A stretch of 64,000 nt of DNA, taken from assembly GCA_947462535.1 (NCBI GenBank), contig CANHPN010000001.1:62001-126000 (forward strand), written 5' to 3'. The position numbers were made by a program, and so were the translations under genes. Numbering within the stretch: position 1 is the stretch's first letter; the number at the start of each line of letters is the position of its first letter. The notes under the pieces were generated by a model, which ran no database searches, was not told the DNA's origin, and was given only the letters and a program-made list of their open reading frames with translations. This DNA is from Akkermansiaceae bacterium (GTDB taxonomy: Bacteria; Verrucomicrobiota; Verrucomicrobiia; Verrucomicrobiales; Akkermansiaceae). This document shows, in pieces, positions 28,125 through 39,504 of this stretch.

Positions 28125-28478
28125 ATGAGACCGCTACTGAAATGGCTGATGGTGATTTGCGCGCTGGCCGGGCTGAATACCCGCGTCCTCGCTGCCGATG
28201 CCAGCCAGGTCGCAGTCTGCGTCAAATCGGCCGACACTTGCTGCCTTGACCATCACGACGCGCCCGCGCCGGAGGAGCATCACCACGATGGCGACGAATG
28301 CCCGACAGATCACCACCACCACTTTGGCTGCTGCTCTCTGGCGCAGCCTTTGACTGTTGAAAACAACCTCAACGGCAGGCTCGGGATCCCCGGCTCGTCT
28401 TTGTTAGGCGTCCTCCATGAGAGCGAGGTTCCGCCCGAGGCACCGGTTCTCGGTTCGGAAAAGCCGCCGTTGATCTGA
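28125..28478 (+). CDS. small secreted His/Cys-rich protein
   Basis: A 117-residue protein with an N-terminal export signal (MRPLLKWLMVICALAGLNTRVLA). The mature part is packed with metal-ligand residues: TCCLDHHDAP, EEHHHDGDEC, DHHHHFGCC; the last 40 residues lack them. It is not a recognised family. It is the first gene of the forward metal-export island, 125 bases before the TolC-like gene, so a periplasmic metal-binding or metal-sensing role is likely by composition and position. ATG 28125 is chosen because it begins a normal signal peptide; the frame is open further upstream. Confidence 0.7.
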   Translation: MRPLLKWLMVICALAGLNTRVLAADASQVAVCVKSADTCCLDHHDAPAPEEHHHDGDECPTDHHHHFGCCSLAQPLTVENNLNGRLGIPGSSLLGVLHESEVPPEAPVLGSEKPPLI

Positions 28479-28603: not shown

Positions 28604-29833
28604 ATGTCAAAATTCTATCCATTGGCCGTGCTCGCGCTTGCCGGCATGACCCTCCCGCTCCGCGCGGAACCTAACGTGATCGTCTCGCTGGCGAGCGTCG
28701 GCGACCGCATTCGCGCCCAAAATCCCGATCTCGCCGCCGCCCGTCTCCGCATCCAGGAAGCGCTCGGCCGGGTGAACCAGTCCGGCCGCCTCGCGAATCC
28801 GGGACTCGAGACCGCCCTCGATCAAAGCTCCGGCTTCCGCGAGGGGAAATTTGAAATCGGAATTTCCCAGCGCTTCCCGCTCACCAACCGGCTGAAACTG
28901 GAGGAAGACGTCTCGCTCACCGAGCTCAAATCCGCCGAGGCCGAAGTCCGCGAAGTCGAGCGCCAACTCACCGGCCAGGCACGCGAGGCGGTGGTTAAAG
29001 TGCTGGCCACCCGCCAGCGCCGTGAACTGCTGCGCGAGCAAATCGGTGTCTCGAAGGAGTTCGCCGAATTCCTATCCGAAATCGCTGCGAAGGGCGAAGG
29101 CTCGCCGCTCGACGTCGGCCAGGCGAAACTCGAAGCCGCCAGCCTCGCCCTGGAAATACGCCAGCTCGACGCGGGGGAAGCCGCCCTCCTCGGCGAACTC
29201 AAGCCGTTGTTAGGAATGCGCCCCGGTGAAACGCTTAGCGTCAGCGGAACCCTGCCGCCACCGATGCCGCCACCCGCCGAAACTGACCCGTCGCACCGTC
29301 CAGATTTCCAAGCCGCCAAGCTCGCCGCGCTCGCCGCCAAGCAGGGCGTCGCGCTCGAACAATCCCGCCGCTACGACGACGTGGAAGGCGGGATTTTCGC
29401 CGCAGCGGAACGCACTGAAGACGCGCCCGAGGGTTATCAAAATGAAGCGATCATCGGCTTGCGGTTCAAGATCGCCCTGCCGTTCTGGAACAAGAACGAA
29501 GGCGCGATTCAGGAGGCCGCAGCAAAAAAAGAACGCAAGGAAATGGAAGCCGTCGCCCTTGGTCGCAATATCCAGTTAGAAGCCGAAGCTGCGCGCGCCG
29601 AGATGCAGGAATGGGCGAAGATGATCGCTGAGATCAACGACACCCTGCTTCCGCTCGCCGCCGAACAATCCGCATTCGCCGAAACCACCTACCGCAACGG
29701 CCAGGGCGAAATCCAATCCGTGCTCCGATCCCGCGAAAAGCGCCTGCAACTCGCCGCCGCCCGGATCGCCGCGCTGCGCGAATTCCACCTTGCCCGCGTC
29801 CGCCATGAAACCGCCCGTGGCGGCGGTTTCTAA
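28604..29833 (+). CDS. czcC: CzcC-like outer membrane factor (TolC family)
   Basis: A 409-residue TolC-family protein with signal peptide MSKFYPLAVLALAGMTLPLRA. Two OEP repeats are present: one around ARLRIQEALGRVNQSGRLANPG and one around PDFQAAKLAALAAKQG, each with long amphipathic helices, and beta strands such as AIIGLRFKIALPFWNKN. It would form the outer-membrane/periplasmic duct of the RND pump encoded next. It ends 34 bases before the adaptor gene. Sub-family (Czc/Cus/Ncc) cannot be settled, so the symbol reflects position. Confidence 0.87.
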   Translation: MSKFYPLAVLALAGMTLPLRAEPNVIVSLASVGDRIRAQNPDLAAARLRIQEALGRVNQSGRLANPGLETALDQSSGFREGKFEIGISQRFPLTNRLKLEEDVSLTELKSAEAEVREVERQLTGQAREAVVKVLATRQRRELLREQIGVSKEFAEFLSEIAAKGEGSPLDVGQAKLEAASLALEIRQLDAGEAALLGELKPLLGMRPGETLSVSGTLPPPMPPPAETDPSHRPDFQAAKLAALAAKQGVALEQSRRYDDVEGGIFAAAERTEDAPEGYQNEAIIGLRFKIALPFWNKNEGAIQEAAAKKERKEMEAVALGRNIQLEAEAARAEMQEWAKMIAEINDTLLPLAAEQSAFAETTYRNGQGEIQSVLRSREKRLQLAAARIAALREFHLARVRHETARGGGF

Positions 29834-29867: not shown

Positions 29868-30989
29868 ATGAATTTCCGATCATCCATTTTCCTCGCACTG
29901 CTCACCACCTCCGCCCTCGCGGCCGAAGCGCCGCCACGTAACGAAAACACCGTCGTGCTTGATGCCGCCGGCGTGCAAAATCTCGGCATCGAAACCGTCA
30001 CTGTCGAGGAATCCACTTTCGAACGTACTATCACCGTGCTCGGCAAAATTGAACATATCTGTGAGAGCCATTCCGTGCTCTCCAGCCGCATCGCCGGCAG
30101 GATTATCGAGGTCGGAATCCACAAAGGTGAGTTTGCTAAAAAGGGCGATGTCCTCCTCCGCATCGAAAGCCGCCAGCCCGGCGACCCGCCACCGGTCATC
30201 GAGCTGAAAGCACCCGCCGACGGCCTCGTCACCCGATCCGAAGGCCACCTCGGCGCACCCGTCGAACCCGACAAAGAGCTGATGGAAATCGTCGACCTAA
30301 CGAACGTATGGGCCGTCGCCCGCGTGCCACAACACCAGGCCGACCTACTCAAGGAGGGTCTCACTGCCAGAGTCCGGATCCCCGCGCTCGGCAAGGAAGA
30401 GCATCAGTCGGCATTCCTCCGGCTCGGCACCGGCGGGGAATTCAGCCCATCCACCGTGGACGCGATTTTCGAGCTGCCGAATCCCGGCTCAAAACTGCGC
30501 CCCGGCATGCGCGCGGAGATTTCACTCATCGCCGCGAAACGCGAAGGCGTTTTCAGCATCCCGCGCGATGCCCTTCAGGGAGACCGCTCTAACCGCTTCG
30601 TCTTCATCAAGGACTACGAGCTGGCAAACGCCTTCGTCCGTGTCCCCGTCACGGTCGGTGAAATCGGCACCGAACGCGTGGAAATCACCGCCGGCCTTTT
30701 ACCGGGTGATGAAGTCGTCACCCGCGGTTCCTACGCCCTGTCGTTCGCCGGAAAAGGCAGCGCCTCGCTCAAGGAAGCGCTCGATGCCGCCCACGGCCAC
30801 CCTCACAACGAGGACGGCACCGAGATGTCGAAGGAGGAAATTGCCGCCGCCGCTGCAGGTGGCGGAGACCACGATCACGCCCATGGTGGCGGCGGACCAC
30901 TCGTCATCTTCCTCGCCATCGCCTGCGGCGTGCTTTTCGTGCTGCTGCTCGCCTCGCCCTTCGTTTTCCGCACCCGCACCAAATTCTAA
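29868..30989 (+). CDS. czcB: RND efflux adaptor with C-terminal His linker and membrane anchor
   Basis: A 373-residue periplasmic adaptor. A signal peptide (FLALLTTSALA) is followed by barrel-sandwich/lipoyl segments (SSRIAGRIIEVGIHKGEFAKKGDV, APADGLVTRSEGHLGAPV), a beta barrel, and GLLPGDEVVTRGSYAL. Unusually, residues from about 315 form a His-rich linker (AAHGHPHNEDGTEM, then GGGDHDHAHGGGG), and about residues 345-367 are a hydrophobic helix (PLVIFLAIACGVLFVLLLAS) with a basic tail RTRTKF. This topology would tether the adaptor to the inner membrane by its C-terminus. It is 6 bases from the pump gene and must be its partner. Confidence 0.87.
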   Translation: MNFRSSIFLALLTTSALAAEAPPRNENTVVLDAAGVQNLGIETVTVEESTFERTITVLGKIEHICESHSVLSSRIAGRIIEVGIHKGEFAKKGDVLLRIESRQPGDPPPVIELKAPADGLVTRSEGHLGAPVEPDKELMEIVDLTNVWAVARVPQHQADLLKEGLTARVRIPALGKEEHQSAFLRLGTGGEFSPSTVDAIFELPNPGSKLRPGMRAEISLIAAKREGVFSIPRDALQGDRSNRFVFIKDYELANAFVRVPVTVGEIGTERVEITAGLLPGDEVVTRGSYALSFAGKGSASLKEALDAAHGHPHNEDGTEMSKEEIAAAAAGGGDHDHAHGGGGPLVIFLAIACGVLFVLLLASPFVFRTRTKF

Positions 30990-30995
30990 CCGATC

Positions 30996-33900
30996 ATGCT
31001 CAATCACCTGATCCGCTTTTCGCTCAAGAACCGGGCGCTCGTCATTGCCGCAGCGGTGCTCGTTCTTTTGTTAGGTCTTCGCGCCGCCACGGAACTCCCC
31101 GTCGAGGTTCTTCCGGACATGACCAAGCCCACCGTCACGGTGCTGACGGAAGCTCCCGGCCTGGCTCCCGAGGAGGTCGAAACCCTCGTCACCCGCCCGC
31201 TGGAAAACGCCCTGCTAGGCGTCGGCGGACTCGACCGCCTGCGCTCGAATTCCGACGTCGGCCTCTCGCTCGTTTTCATCGAGTTCGGCTGGGGCACCGA
31301 TATTTACAAGGCCCGCCAGCTAGTCCAGGAGCGCCTGCAAGCCGCCCCGTTGCCGGAAAACACCCGCTCCGGCATGACGCCAGTTTCCTCGCTGATGGGG
31401 GAAATCCTGCTCGTCGGCCTGCGCTGCAAGGAAGACTCCATCGCCCCGATGGACCTCCGCACCCTCGCCGAGTGGACCGTCGCACGTCGGCTGCAAAGCA
31501 TCCCCGGCGTCGCCGAGGTCCTCGCCATCGGCGGCGGCGTCAAGGAAGTCCACGTCGAGCCGGACCCGCTGAAAATGCAGGCCGAGGGCGTATCGTTAGA
31601 AGAACTGGAAACCGCCGTCTCGCTCTCTGCGGGCAATGCCACCAGCGGTTACCTCCAGTCCGGCCCGCGCGAAATCATGGTCCGCAACCTCGCCATGACC
31701 GCCGATCCCGAAGACATCTCCGCCGCCATCATCAAGCGCGACGGCGAGCGCATCGTCACTATCGCCGACGTCGCCACCGTGAAGTTCGGGGTCGCCACCA
31801 TGCGCGGCGACGCGGCCATCGCCTTCGAGGGCGACAAACAGGAAACTGCTGGCGTCGTGCTCAGCATCGACAAGGCTCCCGGCTTCGACACCCTCAAGCT
31901 AACCGCCGAGATCGAAAAAGCCCTCGAAGAACTCCGCCCCGGCCTGCCGGGCGGAGTCGAAGTCGGAATCCTTTTCCGGCAGGGGGATTTCATCGAACAC
32001 GCCGTCGGCAACCTGAAGGAAGCCATCCGCGACGGTGCCATCATGGTCACCATTGTCCTGTTCCTCTTCCTGCTGAATCTCCGCACCACCTTCATCACTT
32101 TAACAGCCATTCCGCTGTCTTTCGCGATCACGTTGCTTACCTTCAAATGGTTCGGCACCAGCGTGAACAGCATGACCCTCGGCGGCATCGCCGTCGCCAT
32201 CGGCATGGTCGTGGATGATGCCATCGTCGATGTGGAAAACGTCTTCCGCCGTCTGCGGGAAAACGCCGCCCTACCCGAGCCTAAGCCGCGTCTCGAAGTC
32301 ATCGCCGCCGCCTCCAGCGAGGTCCGCTCCAGCATCTTCTACGCGACGATCCTCATCGTGCTCGTCTTCGTTCCGCTGCTCGGTCTGGCAGGATTGGAAG
32401 GGCGGCTGTTCCGCCCGATCGCAATCGCCACCATCGTCAGCATGATGGCGTCCTTCGTCGTCTCACTGACGGTGATCCCGGTGCTCTGCTCGTTCCTTTT
32501 GAAGCCGAAAGAAGGCAGGGAGCACCGCGACGGGCCTTTGGTCAGAGCCCTCAAGGCCTTCACCCGCGCCACGTTCCTGCGCGCGGCTTTCGGAGCGCCG
32601 CTCGCCGTCATCGGAGCGGTTATACTGTTAGTTTTTGGTGCGGGCATGCTCTATCCGGGTATGGGCAAGGAGTTCCTGCCGACCTTCAACGAGGGCAGCG
32701 CCACCATTTCCTTCGCCAGCGCGCCGGGCACCTCGTTGAAGCAATCGAATGAAGTCGGCAAAAGAGCCGTCGAGCTGTTGTTGCAGATTCCCGAAGTCAA
32801 ATCCGTCGGCCGTCGCGCCGGACGTGCCGAGCGCGACGACCATGTCATGCCTGTTTCCGTCAACGAGTTTGACGTCGAATTCCACGAAGGCGGCCGCCAT
32901 CGCGAGGAGGTTTTCGATGAGATCCGCGAAACGCTCAAAGGCATCCCCGGCACCTTCGTCAACGTCGGCCAACCCATCGGCCACCGCCTTAGCCACATGC
33001 TCAGCGGCGTTTCCGCGAAAATCGCCGTGAAGATCCACGGCCCGGATCTCGACACACTCCGTCGCCTCGGCAGCCAGGTGAAAGATGTCGGGAAAAGCAT
33101 CCCCGGCCTCACCGACGTTAACCTCGAAGCCCAGGTGCCCATTCCCCAGATCCGCATCGAGGTGGACCGTGCCCGTGCCCGCCTCGAAGGACTCGCGCCC
33201 GGTGCCATCAACAGCCATGTCTCTCGGTTGTTAGGCGGCTCCATGCTTGGTGAGCTCCGCGAGGGAGAGGCCACCGTGGACCTCGTCATGCGCCTGCCCG
33301 AAAGCTGGCGCACCTGGCCGGAGAAAATCGGCGATCTCCTCATCCAGGCACCCGATGGCCGCCACCTCCCGCTTTCGCTCGTCGCCGACGTGCATGAGGT
33401 CAACGGCCCTAACGTCATCAACCGCGAGAACGGCCAGCGCCGCATCGTCATCGGCGCGAACACCGGCGAGCGGGACCTCGAATCATTGGTGAAAAACTGG
33501 CAGCGCGCCGTTTCCGAACAGGTGAAACTTCCCGACGGCTACTCCCTGCGTTTCGAGGGCGAATACCTTGCCCGCGAGCAGGCGTCGGAGCGGATTCTCA
33601 CCCTCTTCGCCATCATCGCCGGAGTCATCGCCGTGCTGCTGACCGGCTATTTCCGTAGCCTTTCACTCGCTCTTCAGGTTATGCTCAATCTTCCGCTCGC
33701 CCTCGCCGGAGCGCTCGCCTTCACCTGGTGGAAAATCGACAACATTAGCATCGCCACCCTCGTCGGCTTCATCGCCGTCGGCGGCGTGGCTGCTAGAAAC
33801 GGCATCATGATGATTTCCCACTACCTCCACCTCATGCGTCACGAGGGCGAGGTTTTCGGCATCGGGCTCATCACCCGTGGCACATTGGAGCGGCTCGTTC

Positions 33901-34124
33901 CCGTGCTCATGACCGCGCTCGCCGCTGGCATCGCGCTCATCCCTCTGGTCCTCGCGCCCGGAGAGCCCGGCAAGGAAATCCTACATCCCGTCGCCGTCGC
34001 CATCGTCGGCGGATTGATTTCCTCCACCCTCCTCGACCTCGTCGTCACCCCCGCCGTTTTCTTCCTCATCGGCAGAAAAGCTGCGGAAAAAGCTCTCAGG
34101 CTGGATGCTCCGGCCGCCCGCTAG
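30996..34124 (+). CDS. czcA: heavy-metal RND efflux pump (CzcA/CusA family)
   Basis: A 1042-residue inner-membrane antiporter with the twelve-helix RND layout and two large periplasmic loops. Key features are the N-terminal FSLKNRALVIAAAVLVLLLGL, PVEVLPDMTKPTVTV, and in helix 4 GGIAVAIGMVVDDAIVDVEN, whose acidic residues (Asp-Asp, Asp, Glu) relay protons in HME pumps. MGKEFLPTFNEGSATI and VGGVAARNGIMMISHY are also typical. It pumps metal cations using the proton gradient through CzcB and CzcC. The VVDDAIVDVEN form is not exactly that of CzcA or CusA, so the metal (Zn/Co/Cd/Ni or Cu/Ag) stays open. Confidence 0.93.
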   Translation: MLNHLIRFSLKNRALVIAAAVLVLLLGLRAATELPVEVLPDMTKPTVTVLTEAPGLAPEEVETLVTRPLENALLGVGGLDRLRSNSDVGLSLVFIEFGWGTDIYKARQLVQERLQAAPLPENTRSGMTPVSSLMGEILLVGLRCKEDSIAPMDLRTLAEWTVARRLQSIPGVAEVLAIGGGVKEVHVEPDPLKMQAEGVSLEELETAVSLSAGNATSGYLQSGPREIMVRNLAMTADPEDISAAIIKRDGERIVTIADVATVKFGVATMRGDAAIAFEGDKQETAGVVLSIDKAPGFDTLKLTAEIEKALEELRPGLPGGVEVGILFRQGDFIEHAVGNLKEAIRDGAIMVTIVLFLFLLNLRTTFITLTAIPLSFAITLLTFKWFGTSVNSMTLGGIAVAIGMVVDDAIVDVENVFRRLRENAALPEPKPRLEVIAAASSEVRSSIFYATILIVLVFVPLLGLAGLEGRLFRPIAIATIVSMMASFVVSLTVIPVLCSFLLKPKEGREHRDGPLVRALKAFTRATFLRAAFGAPLAVIGAVILLVFGAGMLYPGMGKEFLPTFNEGSATISFASAPGTSLKQSNEVGKRAVELLLQIPEVKSVGRRAGRAERDDHVMPVSVNEFDVEFHEGGRHREEVFDEIRETLKGIPGTFVNVGQPIGHRLSHMLSGVSAKIAVKIHGPDLDTLRRLGSQVKDVGKSIPGLTDVNLEAQVPIPQIRIEVDRARARLEGLAPGAINSHVSRLLGGSMLGELREGEATVDLVMRLPESWRTWPEKIGDLLIQAPDGRHLPLSLVADVHEVNGPNVINRENGQRRIVIGANTGERDLESLVKNWQRAVSEQVKLPDGYSLRFEGEYLAREQASERILTLFAIIAGVIAVLLTGYFRSLSLALQVMLNLPLALAGALAFTWWKIDNISIATLVGFIAVGGVAARNGIMMISHYLHLMRHEGEVFGIGLITRGTLERLVPVLMTALAAGIALIPLVLAPGEPGKEILHPVAVAIVGGLISSTLLDLVVTPAVFFLIGRKAAEKALRLDAPAAR

Positions 34125-34143
34125 AAATAAACACAACCATCCC

Positions 34144-34578
34144 ATGAAAACCAAACTGACCACCATCCTGCTCGTCCTTACCGCCGGCCTCGCCTTCGCT
34201 CACGAAGGGATCGAACTTGGACCTAACAAAGGCCGCGTCGTTGAATTCAGCACCAACGAAACCATGCATGGCGAAGTCACCGCCAAGGAGGGCAAGCTCC
34301 AAATCGCCTTACTCGACAAGGATATGAAGCCCGTGAAGGTCGAGGCCCAGTCCGTGACCGCCACCGCCGGAACCCGTGAGAAACCCGTCAAACTCGAAGT
34401 CAGTAAAAACGAGACCAGTTTCACCATTCCTGCCCCGAAAGATGGAGAATGGCTGATCTTGCAATACAAAGACAGTGCCTCCGCCAAGCCCATCACCGCG
34501 CGCCTGCACTTCAATGAGGAAAATTGTGAGCCTTGCGGCAATCCCGAATGGCGCTGCGCCTGCGCGGAGAAGAAGTGA
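34144..34578 (+). CDS. small secreted protein of the metal-efflux operon
   Basis: A 144-residue exported protein with signal peptide KLTTILLVLTAGLAFA. The mature part begins HEGIELGPNKGRVVEFSTNE, has a beta-rich middle (VTATAGTREKPVKLEV, FTIPAPKDGEWLIL), and ends in CEPCGNPEWRCACAEKK with four cysteines. The family is not named, but similar proteins occur next to Czc-type pumps in this phylum. It follows czcA by 19 bases, so it belongs to the same transcript and may hand metal to the pump. That function is inferred from position and the Cys-rich tail only. Confidence 0.7.
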   Translation: MKTKLTTILLVLTAGLAFAHEGIELGPNKGRVVEFSTNETMHGEVTAKEGKLQIALLDKDMKPVKVEAQSVTATAGTREKPVKLEVSKNETSFTIPAPKDGEWLILQYKDSASAKPITARLHFNEENCEPCGNPEWRCACAEKK

Positions 34579-35095: not shown

Positions 35096-35146
35096 GTATC
35101 GCATGCCCGTGTCAGGGCCTTGCCGTCTCCAAAATTTCCGATTCCC

Positions 35147-36526
35147 ATGAACCCCGCTCCATCCCTCGATTCCCTTTCCCGCCCGGCCGCAGGGCTTCCT
35201 TCCGCGCGTCGTGTTCCCGCGTGGGCCATCCCGCTGACCATCGCCGTGGGATTTGCCGTCCTGTTTCTCGCGCTCTTCCGCGACCGCTTGCTGCCCGCTC
35301 CGGACGTGGATGTCGCCGTGGTGATGGCCACTTCTCCGGACCCGACTGCTGTCAGCGCTGCGCCCGTAGCGGGCAACTTGCTGTTCCAAGCCAGCGGCTG
35401 GATCGAGCCCGACCCGCTGCCGATCAAGGCGACCGCGCTCATCGACGGCGTCGTCGATATCGTGCACGTGCTGGAAGGCCAGGCGGTCGCTAAAAATGAA
35501 CCGTTAGCCACGCTGGTCGACGCCGACGCCCGCCTAGCCCTCGCCGCCGCCGAGCAAAAGCACCAGATTTTGATTGCCACGCGCGCGGCCCAGATCGCCT
35601 CCATTGCAGCGGCGCGCAAGAAACTTGAATCCGCCCGCGCAACCGAGCAGGCAGCCCTAACACTAAAGGAGGAGGCGGCGGACCAGCACTCGCGCATGTC
35701 CGGCATGCGGCAAGGCACAGTGTCGGAATCCGACGTCGTCTCCGCCCGCCTGCGCCTCGATCGCGAGCGTTTGCAAAGCACCGCCGCCGAAGCCGATAGC
35801 GCGGCCGCCGAAGCGGAAATCACCCGCATGGAACTCGAAACGAAAGTCCGCGAGGCCGAGGTGGCCGCCGCCGCCGTGGAGGTCGATCAGGCGAAACTCT
35901 CGCTCGTCCGCACCCGCATCGTTTCTCCCGTCGATGGCCGCGTGTTGCGCCTGCTCGCTGCGCCGGGGCAGAAGAAGAGGCTCGGCATGGACGATCCCGA
36001 CAGCTCGACCATCGCCATCGTCTATCAGCCGGACAAGCTCCAGGTCCGTGTCGATGTTCCGCTCGCCGATGCCGCCGGATTAAGCGTCAGCCAACAGGCG
36101 AAAATCCGCTGCAGTCTGCTTCCAGACAAGGTGTTCATCGGCGAGGTCACGCGCATCACCGGCGAGGCCGACGTCCAGCGCAACACCCTGCAGGCGAAAG
36201 TCCGCATCCTCGATCCGATCGACACGCTTCGCCCGGAAATGCTTTGCCGCGTCGAGTTTCTCGGCACCGCCGCTGGATCTGCATCCGGTTCATCCATCGC
36301 CTCACTCGCGTTGTGGATTCCTCAGGCAGCACTGGCAGACGGCGTCGTGTGGGTTTGCGATCCCGAATCAAAACGGGTGACAAAACGATCTTTGAGTTTA
36401 ACCACCGAACAACGCGACGGCTTCATCCGCATTTCCGAGGGCCTGCGCCCCGGCGAGCAAGTCGTCCTTTCCCCCAACAGCCTGCGCGACGGCCAGCGAG
36501 TCAATCCCACTCTCAAACAACCATGA
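35147..36526 (+). CDS. HlyD/MacA-like adaptor of ABC export module
   Basis: A 459-residue periplasmic adaptor with one N-terminal membrane helix (WAIPLTIAVGFAVLFLALF). The lipoyl half (ASGWIEPDPLPIKATALIDG, VLEGQAVAKNEPLATL), a long coiled coil (residues about 125-275, rich in Ala/Glu/Arg) and the second half (VRTRIVSPVDGRVLRLLAAPG) are clear, followed by a C-terminal barrel. ATG 35147 is chosen over the TTG at 35120. It overlaps the ATPase gene by 4 bases (ATGA). It should link the ABC permeases to the outer membrane or to a periplasmic partner. Confidence 0.85.
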   Translation: MNPAPSLDSLSRPAAGLPSARRVPAWAIPLTIAVGFAVLFLALFRDRLLPAPDVDVAVVMATSPDPTAVSAAPVAGNLLFQASGWIEPDPLPIKATALIDGVVDIVHVLEGQAVAKNEPLATLVDADARLALAAAEQKHQILIATRAAQIASIAAARKKLESARATEQAALTLKEEAADQHSRMSGMRQGTVSESDVVSARLRLDRERLQSTAAEADSAAAEAEITRMELETKVREAEVAAAAVEVDQAKLSLVRTRIVSPVDGRVLRLLAAPGQKKRLGMDDPDSSTIAIVYQPDKLQVRVDVPLADAAGLSVSQQAKIRCSLLPDKVFIGEVTRITGEADVQRNTLQAKVRILDPIDTLRPEMLCRVEFLGTAAGSASGSSIASLALWIPQAALADGVVWVCDPESKRVTKRSLSLTTEQRDGFIRISEGLRPGEQVVLSPNSLRDGQRVNPTLKQP

Positions 36527-37206
36527 ATCTCCCGATGATCCAATGCCGCGGCGTTTCGAAAAGCTACCACAAGGGCAGCACCATCGTGACGCCTCTCGAA
36601 GCTCTCGACCTCGATGTGCCGAAGGGCGAATTCCTCGCGCTGATGGGACCGTCCGGCTCGGGAAAAACCACGCTGCTCAACCTGCTTGCAGGCATCGATT
36701 CGCCTACCGCGGGCTCGTTGGTGATCGCCGGCACGGAGCTTGCCAAGCTCTCCCGGCGCGACCTCACGAAATGGCGGGCCCACCACGTCGGCTATATTTT
36801 CCAACTCTATCACCTCGTGCCGGTGCTTACGGCTTTTGAAAACGTGGAGCTGCCCTTGTTGCTCTCGCCTCTATCAAAAAGTGAGCGCCACGCCCGGGTG
36901 GAAACCGCATTGGCTCTCGTCGGCCTAGGCGACCGCATCCATCACACGCCATCCGAGCTATCTGGTGGCCAGGAACAACGCGTCGCCATCGCCCGCGCCA
37001 TGGTCGCGGATCCTCCGCTGCTCGTCGCGGACGAACCCACCGGCGACCTTGACCGCGAGTCCGCCACCCGGATTCTCGATCTGCTGCGCCAGCTCGCCGC
37101 AGAGTTTGGCAAGACCATCGTCATGGTCACGCACGACGCCAAGGCCGCCGCCGCCGCCGATCGCATCCTGCATTTGGAAAAAGGCCAGCTTCTCGAAAAC
37201 ACATGA
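36523..37206 (+). CDS. MacB/LolD-type ABC ATPase
   Basis: A 227-residue ATPase of the MacB/LolD/FtsE family. Walker A GPSGSGKTTLLNLLAGID near residue 43, signature LSGGQEQRVAIARA, Walker B LLVADEPTGDLD and switch VMVTHD are all intact; the normal SGGQ(Q/E)QR is present. It overlaps the adaptor gene before and the FtsX gene after by 4 bases each, a tightly coupled operon. It powers two FtsX-type permeases encoded next. MacB-type exporters work without moving substrate through the membrane, pulling periplasmic cargo by mechanotransmission. Confidence 0.92.
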   Translation: MNLPMIQCRGVSKSYHKGSTIVTPLEALDLDVPKGEFLALMGPSGSGKTTLLNLLAGIDSPTAGSLVIAGTELAKLSRRDLTKWRAHHVGYIFQLYHLVPVLTAFENVELPLLLSPLSKSERHARVETALALVGLGDRIHHTPSELSGGQEQRVAIARAMVADPPLLVADEPTGDLDRESATRILDLLRQLAAEFGKTIVMVTHDAKAAAAADRILHLEKGQLLENT

Positions 37207-38351
37207 ATCCCGCGCACAATCTGCTCAAGCTCGCTTGGATCCAGCTCGTCCGCCACCGTGTGCGCTCGCTGCTGACGATCCTCGGCGTCGCATCCGGAAT
37301 GTTTCTCTTCACCGCCGTGGAAACCCTCCAGCGATCCTTGGCAAAGGCCACTGCCGCTTCCGCCGCCGACACCACGCTGGTGGTCTATCGACAGAACCGC
37401 TTCTGCCCCTCCGCAAGCCGCCTGCCCGAACATTATGCCGATGAAATCCGACGCATCGACGGCGTCCGCGAAGTCGTGCCGGTCCAGATCGTCGTCAACA
37501 ACTGCGGCGCGTCGCTCGATGTCGTCACCTTCCGTGGCGTCCCTGGCGAACTGTTAAAAAAATTCGCTCCGGAAATCACCATCATCGATGGCAGCGAGGA
37601 CGCTTGGCAACGCCGCGACGACGGAGCGCTGCTAGGCGAAATTTTCGCCCGCCGCCGCGGACTCAAGCCCGGCGATCGCTTCGATGCGGCGGGCGTCACT
37701 GTCACCGTTTCCGGCATCCTCCGCTCGCCCTTCGCGCAGGACAACAACGTCGCCTATGTGAAACTCCCGTTTCTCCAACAGGCGTCGCGCGCCGGGCTCG
37801 GCGTGGTTACCCAGTTCAACGTGCGGGTGAATGACTCGAAGCAACTCGAACCCGTGGCCAAGGCGATCGATGAAATTTTCCGCTCCGGCCAGGAACCCAC
37901 CGATACCCGCCCGGAGAAAGCCTTTTTCGCCGAGACCGCCTCCGAACTCATCGAGCTGATCGGATTTACCCGTTGGCTCGGTGTCGGCGCGGTGCTTGCC
38001 GTGGGCGGTCTGGTTGCCAACGCGCTTCTGTTAGTCGTGCGCGGCCGGGTGAAGGAAAACGCGGTTTTACGGACCCTTGGATTTCCCGGCCGCGCCATCG
38101 CCTGGCTCGTCCTCAGCGAAGGCGGCATGCTCGGCCTCGCTGGCGGTGTGGTGGGCGTCGGGCTGGCCGCCGTTTTCCTGCGTTGGCAGAGTTTTACGAT
38201 GGGCAATGAAGGACAAACCCTCGCCATCCAGCCGGACGTCACCGTCATCGCAATCGGCGTGGGCGCCGCATTGTTGTTGGGGATTTTCGCCTCCTTGTGG
38301 CCCGCATTCCAAGCGATGACCCAGCCGATCGTCAAAAACCTCCGCAGCTAA
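37203..38351 (+). CDS. FtsX-like ABC permease
   Basis: A 382-residue permease with the four-helix FtsX/MacB layout: an N-terminal helix (VRSLLTILGVASGMFLFTAV), a large periplasmic domain (about residues 45-255) and three C-terminal helices (LGVGAVLAVGGLVANALLLV, IAWLVLSEGGMLGLAGGVVG, VTVIAIGVGAALLLGIFASL). The periplasmic domain has two Cys (RFCPSAS and NNCGASL). It follows the ATPase with a 4-base overlap and precedes a second, divergent FtsX gene by one base, suggesting a heterodimeric permease. Confidence 0.88.
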   Translation: MNPAHNLLKLAWIQLVRHRVRSLLTILGVASGMFLFTAVETLQRSLAKATAASAADTTLVVYRQNRFCPSASRLPEHYADEIRRIDGVREVVPVQIVVNNCGASLDVVTFRGVPGELLKKFAPEITIIDGSEDAWQRRDDGALLGEIFARRRGLKPGDRFDAAGVTVTVSGILRSPFAQDNNVAYVKLPFLQQASRAGLGVVTQFNVRVNDSKQLEPVAKAIDEIFRSGQEPTDTRPEKAFFAETASELIELIGFTRWLGVGAVLAVGGLVANALLLVVRGRVKENAVLRTLGFPGRAIAWLVLSEGGMLGLAGGVVGVGLAAVFLRWQSFTMGNEGQTLAIQPDVTVIAIGVGAALLLGIFASLWPAFQAMTQPIVKNLRS

Positions 38352-38352
38352 C

Positions 38353-39504
38353 ATGCTCCCATTCACCTATGCCGTGCGGAATCTGTTCCGCTCCAAATCC
38401 AGACTGCTCCAGACCATCGGCGGCAGCGCGGTGGTGGTGCTGTTGGTCATGGCCTCGGTCGCCATCAACCATGGCATGAAGCGCGTGCTTTCCGCCTCCG
38501 GATCGGAGCGGAATATCATCCTCGTCGGTGCGGGTTCGGAAGAAAGCATCCAGCGCAGCGAGGTCGCCGAGCGGACCGCCGGAATCGCCGAGGCCGGGAT
38601 CATCGGTATCTCGGAATCCCTCGGGGTGCGCGCTGTTTCCAGCGAGATCCATTACATGAATTTCCTCAATCTGCCAGACGGCCGCCGCAGCCAGGGAGTG
38701 CTCCGCGGAGTCACAGCGCGGGCGCTGCGGGTGCATCCGGGGGTTCGTTTGATAGAAGGAGCTTTCCCGGGAGCGGGCGAGGTGATGCCCGGACGTCTCG
38801 CATGGCGGAAACTCGGTTGGAAAGAAAGCGACCTCAAGCTCGGCGCAACCATCATTCTCGACCACCAACCACTCAGGATTTCCGGTACCTTCGCTGCTCC
38901 CGGAACCGTCCTTGAGTCGGAAATCTGGGCCAATCTCGGCGATCTGCGGGTGCTCGCAAAACGGGAAACGCTCTCATGCGTGGTGATCCGTCTCGATGAT
39001 CCCGCCGACTTCGCGGAAGCCGATCTTTTCGCGAAACAACGGCTCGATCTCGAACTCAGCGCCCTGCGGGAGAGCGATTACTACGACCGTCTCAGCGCCT
39101 TTTTCAAACCACTGCGGGCCATGACTTGGATCACCGCGGGGCTGATCGCCGCAGGTGCTTTATTCGGCGGCGTCAACACGCTGTATGCCGCCTTCGCCTC
39201 GCGCGTCCGCGAGATGGCCACCTTGCAAGCCATCGGCTTTGGACGCGGTGCGCTGGTAGTGAGCCTGATTCAGGAAAGCACGCTCGCCTGTCTGACCGGC
39301 GCGCTGCTCGCATCCGTCTTCGCGGTCACCTTGCTCGACGGCAGGACCATTCCATTTTCCATTGGCGCATTCACCTTGGAAATCACTCCTGTCGTCGCCA
39401 TCACCGGCATTCTAACCGGGCTATTTCTCGGCCTGCTCGGCGCCCTTCCCCCGGCCTTCCGCTGCCTCAAGCCACCGCTTCCCACCGCTCTCCGAATGTC
39501 CTAG
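38353..39504 (+). CDS. FtsX-like ABC permease, second subunit
   Basis: A 383-residue permease with the same topology as its neighbour: an N-terminal helix (IGGSAVVVLLVMASVAI), a periplasmic domain and three C-terminal helices (TWITAGLIAAGALFGGVNTL, ACLTGALLASVFAVTLL, VVAITGILTGLFLGLLGAL). REMATLQAIGFGRGALV is the conserved coupling segment of FtsX permeases. Sequence identity with the first permease seems low, so they probably form a heterodimer driven by the MacB-like ATPase. The stop lies 15 bases before the lipoprotein gene. Confidence 0.88.
   Translation: MLPFTYAVRNLFRSKSRLLQTIGGSAVVVLLVMASVAINHGMKRVLSASGSERNIILVGAGSEESIQRSEVAERTAGIAEAGIIGISESLGVRAVSSEIHYMNFLNLPDGRRSQGVLRGVTARALRVHPGVRLIEGAFPGAGEVMPGRLAWRKLGWKESDLKLGATIILDHQPLRISGTFAAPGTVLESEIWANLGDLRVLAKRETLSCVVIRLDDPADFAEADLFAKQRLDLELSALRESDYYDRLSAFFKPLRAMTWITAGLIAAGALFGGVNTLYAAFASRVREMATLQAIGFGRGALVVSLIQESTLACLTGALLASVFAVTLLDGRTIPFSIGAFTLEITPVVAITGILTGLFLGLLGALPPAFRCLKPPLPTALRMS

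Follow-up and report, generated by a model that had tools for sequence, protein, structure and literature searches.

A hairpin-less adaptor of a heavy-metal RND pump with a near-invariant histidine block and a predicted C-terminal membrane anchor in Akkermansiaceae

Adaptors of RND pumps are described as held in the membrane by an N-terminal helix or a lipid in the available text of two papers (PMC4446572, PMC8277102). The accessible literature, from which subscription papers are mostly missing, gave no description of C-terminal transmembrane adaptors, and this includes the accessible part of PMC12292863; for IhpABC it offered unrelated papers. Two further papers, as far as their text was available, do not mention a C-terminal helix of CopB (PMC4335983, PMC4284471). 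In BesA, a nine-residue loop replaces the alpha-hairpin, and its authors report that sequences without a hairpin occur in spirochaetes and, in rare cases, in Legionella (PMC3807786, available part). SilB of Cupriavidus metallidurans carries a C-terminal metallochaperone domain, according to the part of PMC4446572 at hand. On the pump side, the HME classes and their substrates are given in PMC3637150, and NieA is treated as a putative nickel pump, either of HME5 or of a proposed sixth class, with the motifs HAEGVH and HRLDH (PMC7060636); both papers were available in part. The adaptor reported here belongs to a known protein family and combines an unusual yet conserved anchor with a conserved motif; the silence of the literature on such anchors is no proof of novelty.

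The DNA analyzed is a stretch of 64,000 nucleotides from an Akkermansiaceae bacterium (assembly GCA_947462535.1, contig CANHPN010000001.1, positions 62,001 to 126,000), referred to as the window. The relevant features, numbered from its first letter, are the following.

28125 to 28478, + strand: His/Cys-rich exported small protein upstream of the operon (homologues in 22 loci)
28604 to 29833, + strand: TolC-family outer-membrane factor (OMF) (PF02321, E=2e-22; start codon chosen by signal peptide)
29868 to 30989, + strand: periplasmic adaptor of an RND pump (membrane fusion protein), 373 aa, predicted to be anchored at its C-terminus (PF16576, PF13437, TIGR01730)
29868 to 29924, + strand: presumed Sec signal peptide of the adaptor, about residues 1-19, ALA/A type (read from the sequence)
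30171 to 30194, + strand: short loop RQPGDPPP between the lipoyl halves, at the place of the alpha-hairpin (AlphaFold2 strands, alignment)
30765 to 30827, + strand: near-invariant block SLKEALDAAHGHPHNEDGTEM, residues 300-320, presumed metal site (lowest-entropy 21-residue window)
30828 to 30896, + strand: variable linker, residues 321-343, with an optional second His cluster (entropy 2.44-2.52 bits)
30897 to 30980, + strand: predicted transmembrane helix at the C-terminus, residues 344-371, continuing into the basic RTRTKF (AlphaFold2, Kyte-Doolittle, octanol)
30996 to 34124, + strand: CusA/CzcA-type RND pump, NieA/HME5-like (TIGR00914, 739.4 bits, cut-off 701.45)
34144 to 34578, + strand: conserved exported accessory protein after the pump, 144 aa (homologues in 67 of 80 motif-fetched loci)

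The open reading frame of the adaptor runs from an ATG at 29868 to a stop at 30989 and translates into 373 residues. It was matched by PF16576 (76.5 bits, cut-off 30), PF13437 (52.6 bits) and TIGR01730 (118.2 bits, above the curated cut-off of 94.9). Its scores with the CzcB/NccB model TIGR00999 (93.2 bits) and the IhpB model NF045680 (77 bits) were far below the respective cut-offs of 319.3 and 450. The closest named records come from Verrucomicrobiota genomes, mostly metagenome-assembled ones. Along the chain, a signal peptide is followed by the body, a His region with HGHPHNEDG and then DHDHAHGG, and, at the C-terminus, a hydrophobic helix that ends in basic residues. The adaptor adjoins both the OMF upstream and the RND pump downstream. 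An earlier note on this DNA had singled out both His clusters and a strong C-terminal hydrophobic helix just before the pump gene. All of these were confirmed in the sequence, with the pump starting at 30996, 6 bases after the adaptor stop.

At the other end of the protein, an AxA-type cleavage site can be read in the leader, and the lipobox pattern was found in none of the 52 non-redundant family members (no Cys lipobox, unlike BesA). Where other adaptors have an N-terminal anchor, whether lipid or helix, this one has no lipobox, a leader whose cleavage is presumed, and a C-terminal helix instead. Sequence and model are consistent with a type I single-pass layout consisting of a signal peptide, an outer body, a stop-transfer helix and a basic cytosolic end.

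The C-terminal hydrophobic segment, PLVIFLAIACGVLFVLLLASPFVFRTRTKF, reaches a best 19-residue Kyte-Doolittle (KD) mean of 2.98 and an octanol sum of -11.8, the thresholds used for a helix being 1.6 and -5. AlphaFold2 placed a helix at residues 344-371 in a single-chain model (mean pLDDT 84.8, pTM 0.62), with pLDDT values of 71-94 over 341-370. Whole-protein searches yielded 55 best-match loci with 54 complete adaptors. The earlier note would have been contradicted by homologues that lack both extensions as a rule; within the family, HGHxH and the C-terminal helix occur together in all 48 complete homologues of at least 40% identity, with the helix of one (L021) passing on the octanol scale only and failing on KD. 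Among the more distant best-match loci, L050 and L051 have the helix without HGHxH, so helix and motif are not strictly coupled. Four others (L052-L055) lack the helix, and L052, L054 and L055 keep the His end.

The helix was also present in 52 of 52 non-redundant members that had not been fetched by the motif pattern. Lys and Arg were more numerous after the helix than before it in 48 of these and equal in the remaining 4. Its letters are poorly kept, with a mean entropy of 2.34 bits versus 1.41 for the body, and the basic C-terminal end averages 2.96 bits in the same set. The tails beyond the 19-residue hydrophobic window span 3 to 36 residues in the best-match loci. As judged from these sequences, the helix is kept as hydrophobicity, not as letters.

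The seven other adaptors encoded in this genome all lack such a helix. A control sample from the phylum gave the same picture: among 18 resolved adaptors none passed the octanol threshold of -5 and one passed KD alone, while 11 of the 29 loci sampled (L219-L221, L229, L234-L240) gave no resolved adaptor ORF. In one control, L231, a KD value of 1.69 stands against an octanol sum of +1.6. Three adaptor loci (L030, L072, L077) are cut by contig ends. These two scales separate imperfectly, as cyanobacterial stretches (see below) overlap with helix-less adaptors on both. The biological scale does separate the sequences scored, with values of at most 4.7 in the family (58 distinct sequences), 0.8-3.7 in the cyanobacteria and at least 7.4 in 31 helix-less adaptors. 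One candidate, L140, was rejected as helix-bearing: its KD pass is due to a strand in the last 70 residues, its biological-scale value is 7.4, and its end past the residue-288 position is only 17 aa long. The sequence comparisons indicate that the C-terminal extension, His block and helix together, is the rule within its family and not chance. The inner-membrane tether that the earlier note had drawn from this helix is supported, as a prediction, by hydrophobicity, positive-inside charge (48/52), the AlphaFold2 helix and conservation.

The most conserved 21-residue window of the adaptor lies just ahead of the spacer. Residues 300-320, with the consensus SLKEALDAAHGHxHxxDGxE, have an entropy of 0.41 bits versus 1.41 for the body in the 52 non-redundant members, a set made without motif-fetched sequences and requiring tblastn bits >200. 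HGHxHxxDG is intact in 51 of the 52, the exception being L146 with HDHEH. Conservation in a larger set (126 members, 79 non-redundant sequences) is partly circular because 78 of the 126 were fetched by motif. The spacer, at 2.44-2.52 bits, holds anywhere from 0 to 10 His in the 79 sequences. On this comparison the His region has two parts, a near-invariant block with the first cluster and a variable spacer, and only the first cluster is conserved. The entropies of block, spacer and helix describe a conserved set made of a precise His block, a free-sequence tether and a generic helix. The "His-rich linker" proposed at first therefore holds for the first cluster, which lies in the near-invariant block, and fails for the second, which is variable and leaves 19 of the 79 sequences with no spacer His. 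Likewise, flexibility suits the spacer of this supposed metal-binding segment but not the first His cluster, which sits in the most conserved block. The block is presumed to be a divalent-metal site; as a counterpoint, His-rich ends can be mere buffers.

The body is not the ordinary adaptor body that had been assumed. In the AlphaFold2 model and the alignment, the alpha-hairpin is absent and a short loop takes its place. The lipoyl halves are joined only by ESRQPGDPPP, and predicted strands 95-101 and 110-114 flank the loop. Residues E100, S101, R102, G105 and P107-109 are invariant in 28 relatives, and a strict hairpin-less loop pattern was found in 45 of the 54 complete best-match adaptors, the other 9 being more distant. 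Stretch 96-117 measures 22 aa here versus 64 and 98 in the hairpin adaptors L139 and L140. Similarly short stretches (19-22 residues) were seen at the hairpin's place in 22 of 24 adaptors aligned with the query, the very divergent L179 among them, a share that is biased upward because most of these were found with a profile made from sequences that lack the hairpin. The IhpB adaptor examined (L137) is hairpin-less too, and hairpin-less adaptors do not appear to be rare around metal pumps. The best fold matches over residues 34-295 were CusB (3ne5, Z 18.4) and then BesA (4kku, Z 17.1). CusB, the top match, is itself not hairpin-less, and the fold search is thus evidence for the shared domains rather than for the absence of the hairpin.

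The family occurs across the phylum. A match at E<=0.001 was found in 58 of 59 related genomes; 47 were better than 1e-30, and the other 11 look like other adaptors. A profile search of 387 phylum genomes, with up to five candidates scored per genome, gave at least 40 places with 360 bits or more, in 33 genomes. In all 40 listed places the alignment extends to position 367-376 of the 378 in the model and so includes the helix. The tier below (140-264 bits) stops at model positions 290-347, except for two fragments of one split gene in G269; on full reading, three of its members (L171, L172, L180) have the helix. The spacer before the helix of L171 is extremely His-rich (KEHKHEHAKETNEHKHSEKEH...). 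One genome, G432, has four copies of the C-terminally anchored adaptor.

The gene neighborhood is that of a tripartite exporter. In the motif-fetched set, an OMF was located upstream of 73 of 79 adaptors, and a pump directly downstream of 63 of the 77 with room for one; it was not found there in 14. TMH4 of the window pump is AIGMVVDDAIVDVENV. The pump also has DDHVMPV and GHRLSH, and HAEGVH is not exact; HAEGVH and HRLDH are both exact in the relatives L172, L180, L182 and L183. Among solved structures, CusA is nearest to the window pump in sequence (464 bits). Our best guess is that the substrate is a divalent metal, perhaps nickel. The 144-aa accessory protein has no Pfam family above cut-off; weaker matches to it were seen in Azospirillum, Cupriavidus and Methylorubrum loci (E 6e-9 to 1e-4) and at an Afipia IhpB locus (2e-7). 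The small protein at 28125-28478 carries HHHDGDECPTDHHHHFGCC and ends in KPPLI, and its match to DUF2946 is weak and below cut-off. Elsewhere, the adaptors of L189, L193 and L196, which adjoin NieA-like pumps, are about 547-569 aa long and may include the 'cep' gene in fused form; in L190 and L192 a separate protein of about 187-208 aa lies between OMF and adaptor. The next operon of the window (35120-39504) encodes an HlyD-like adaptor, an ABC ATPase and two permeases, which we take to be a MacB/DevBCA-like exporter.

Relatives without the helix bear on how the extension arose. Of 19 helix-less adaptors, 18 stop 16-30 residues past the residue-288 position; the exception, L139, has 104 residues there. 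This plasmid-borne Pseudomonas adaptor has an end that looks to us like a CusF-type metal domain, as in SilB. A terminal HxH (GGHHH, SHDH, GDGHGH, GHGHTH, EHGHSH and similar) was found in 14 of the 19, and it matches the AAHGHxH position of the window adaptor in a gapped alignment. The His motif may predate the helix, with spacer and helix added after it. Among adaptors beside NieA-like pumps of other phyla, only 2 of 12 (L199, L201) have a terminal HxH, so these pumps can do without it. In L182 and L183 the His end is kept, the helix is absent and the pump is still close, which suggests that the helix is dispensable in some. A C-terminal helix was absent from the adaptors that adjoin related pumps in Hymenobacter (2), Haliscomenobacter, Magnetospirillum, Variovorax, Cupriavidus, Methylorubrum, Azospirillum, Tabrizicola, Thiothrix, Salinibacter and Phocaeicola. 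Plasmid pump matches were fetched as 10 of the 40 listed and, in a second search, 8 of the 60 listed.

Homologues within the family carry the extension as a rule, and beyond the family the helix is exceptional. It is not confined to this group: the four cyanobacterial HME5-type adaptors that could be read seem to have one as well. Six cyanobacterial loci were fetched, and no complete adaptor came from two of them (L202, L203). All four others, from Synechocystis (CopB), Chroococcidiopsis, Nostoc and Pseudanabaena, end in a hydrophobic stretch followed by basic residues, with octanol sums of -6.4, -3.2, -4.2 and -2.0 and KD values of 1.46, 1.53, 1.45 and 2.11. Only L200 passes the octanol threshold and only L206 that of KD. 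A C-terminal helix is probable in these adaptors; the stretch is weaker than in the window family on these two scales and lies inside the range of that family on the biological scale. L206 is a 230-aa Pseudanabaena 'cobalt transporter' (L206:2791-3480) before an HME5-like pump and, by inspection, appears reduced to the C-terminal helix and the membrane-proximal portion of an adaptor. It matches 37 plasmid records, 2 of them over at least 80% of its length. A plasmid search with the C-terminal 74 residues alone gave no match, a result that says little because low-complexity filtering was on.

Among the motif-fetched loci, every second non-redundant one that had a complete pump and an adjacent adaptor entered the pump trees, and the 52-row tree left out the long-branch pumps L179 and L187. 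In that tree the helix needs three changes, two of them forced by starred branches. One falls in the cyanobacteria, and the Verrucomicrobiota need a gain and a loss, or two gains; a single gain would be enough there if one unsupported fork were resolved otherwise. Helix-less branches lie between the cyanobacterial and the verrucomicrobial helices. The cyanobacterial helix was probably gained separately; both may also share descent, with loss in between or with adaptors swapped between pumps.

Taken together, we give a probability of roughly 0.6 to the following reading: the protein is the hairpin-less adaptor of a NieA/HME5-like tripartite exporter of divalent metals, tethered by a C-terminal stop-transfer helix and bearing the His block as a metal site at its foot. 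A Sec-type leader would export the adaptor, with no lipid anchor, and the C-terminal helix would keep it in the inner membrane, N-terminus out and C-terminus in, doing what a lipid or helix at the N-terminus does in other adaptors. It would sit beside the pump encoded next to it. The HGHxHxxDGxE block, between membrane-proximal domain and helix, may bind divalent metal and pass it on, or signal it, to the periplasmic entrance of the pump; the spacer past the block, variable in sequence and length, would serve as the tether. The lipoyl tip would dock to the outer channel together with the pump, as has been suggested for BesA. That the adaptor may feed metal to the pump, as the earlier note proposed, is plausible.

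The helix might do more than anchor. It could be a subunit that binds the pump specifically, a transmembrane partner of the AcrZ kind joined to the adaptor, as small helical partners such as AcrZ bind their transporter within the membrane (PMC4446572, available part). The adaptor gene does lie mostly directly before the pump (63/77), and helix residues L356 and L360 are frequent (at least 90% in the 28 relatives, 87% and 82% in the larger set). However, the letters of the helix are poorly conserved (2.34 bits versus 1.41 for the body), and L182 and L183 have a close pump without it; we regard this idea as unlikely. Natural fusions of adaptor and pump, which would prove contact, were not found among the ORFs of the loci examined. 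The His block raises a similar question, in that it could serve for docking or folding, with the membrane-proximal domain or the pump as partner, and not be a metal site. Its flanks, SLKEALDAA and DGxE, vary about as little as the histidines do, a constancy that a simple metal buffer would not call for, and a terminal HxH is missing from 10 of the 12 adaptors that adjoin NieA-like pumps in other phyla. Yet three histidines at fixed spacing are intact in 51 of 52 members and a terminal HxH is found in 14 of 19 helix-less relatives of metal pumps, leaving docking an unlikely account, slightly more so than a pump-binding helix.

Two readings would remove the C-terminal anchor altogether. CTERM-type sorting signals resemble a spacer followed by a hydrophobic helix and a basic end, and the adaptor's end looks alike; as such a tripartite signal it would be cut off and the protein swapped to another anchor. 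This was rejected on the lack of conserved residues before the helix (the top residue reaches 18-46% at 340-344) and on the long tails (3 to 36 residues past the 19-residue window), and we consider it very improbable. The signal peptide might also stay uncut and anchor an ordinary adaptor at its N-terminus, with the C-terminal helix incidental, but this is hard to square with the AxA-type site or with a helix in 52 of 52 family members and in 0 of 7 other adaptors of the genome; we consider it just as improbable.

We return to the stop-transfer reading, in which the helix anchors the adaptor beside a metal-binding foot. The group occurs across the Verrucomicrobiota, with a predicted anchor at the opposite terminus, without a hairpin and with a His motif that hardly varies. 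A natural deletion here separates the two jobs of an adaptor, reaching the outer channel and acting on the pump. It makes testable how hairpin-less pumps join the outer channel and whether the membrane-proximal foot of the adaptor loads metal into the pump. A more speculative idea, which we hold only tentatively and rate well below the main reading, is that metal-RND adaptors shifted their anchor from the N- to the C-terminus at least twice. Membrane-proximal domain, metal-reading His motif and tether would then form a membrane-tied metal-gated valve at the pump's metal entrance, the hairpin being no longer needed for its action on the pump; if true, L206 of Pseudanabaena would be its minimal form.

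Among known systems, BesA of Borrelia burgdorferi (PDB 4KKS-4KKU) shares lipoyl, barrel and membrane-proximal domains with the window adaptor (VIA-align Z 17.1 over 246 residues). In contrast to it, BesA is N-terminally lipidated and serves a drug pump, and the available part of its description holds no His motif or C-terminal helix (PMC3807786). The CusB, CzcB and IhpB adaptors of heavy-metal RND pumps have the same body and pump class, and many end in HxH. The helix-less adaptors of this type end 16-30 residues past the 288 position, except for L139, and none has a C-terminal helix. SilB resembles the window adaptor in its C-terminal metal-handling extension, which is a folded CusF-like domain and not a short His motif with a helix. 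The NieA operon has pump motifs close to those of the window pump and a related exported accessory protein, whereas 12 adaptors beside NieA-like pumps in Pseudomonadota, Bacteroidota and Salinibacter are without the C-terminal helix. The cyanobacterial HME5 adaptors differ from the window family in lacking the HGHxH block, and L200, L204 and L205 keep a long alpha-hairpin. Like the window family, CopB of Synechocystis sp. PCC 6803 and these adaptors have a hydrophobic stretch and a basic end after the membrane-proximal domain and an HME5-like pump adjoining, which makes CopB a genetically tractable counterpart with a probable C-terminal helix.
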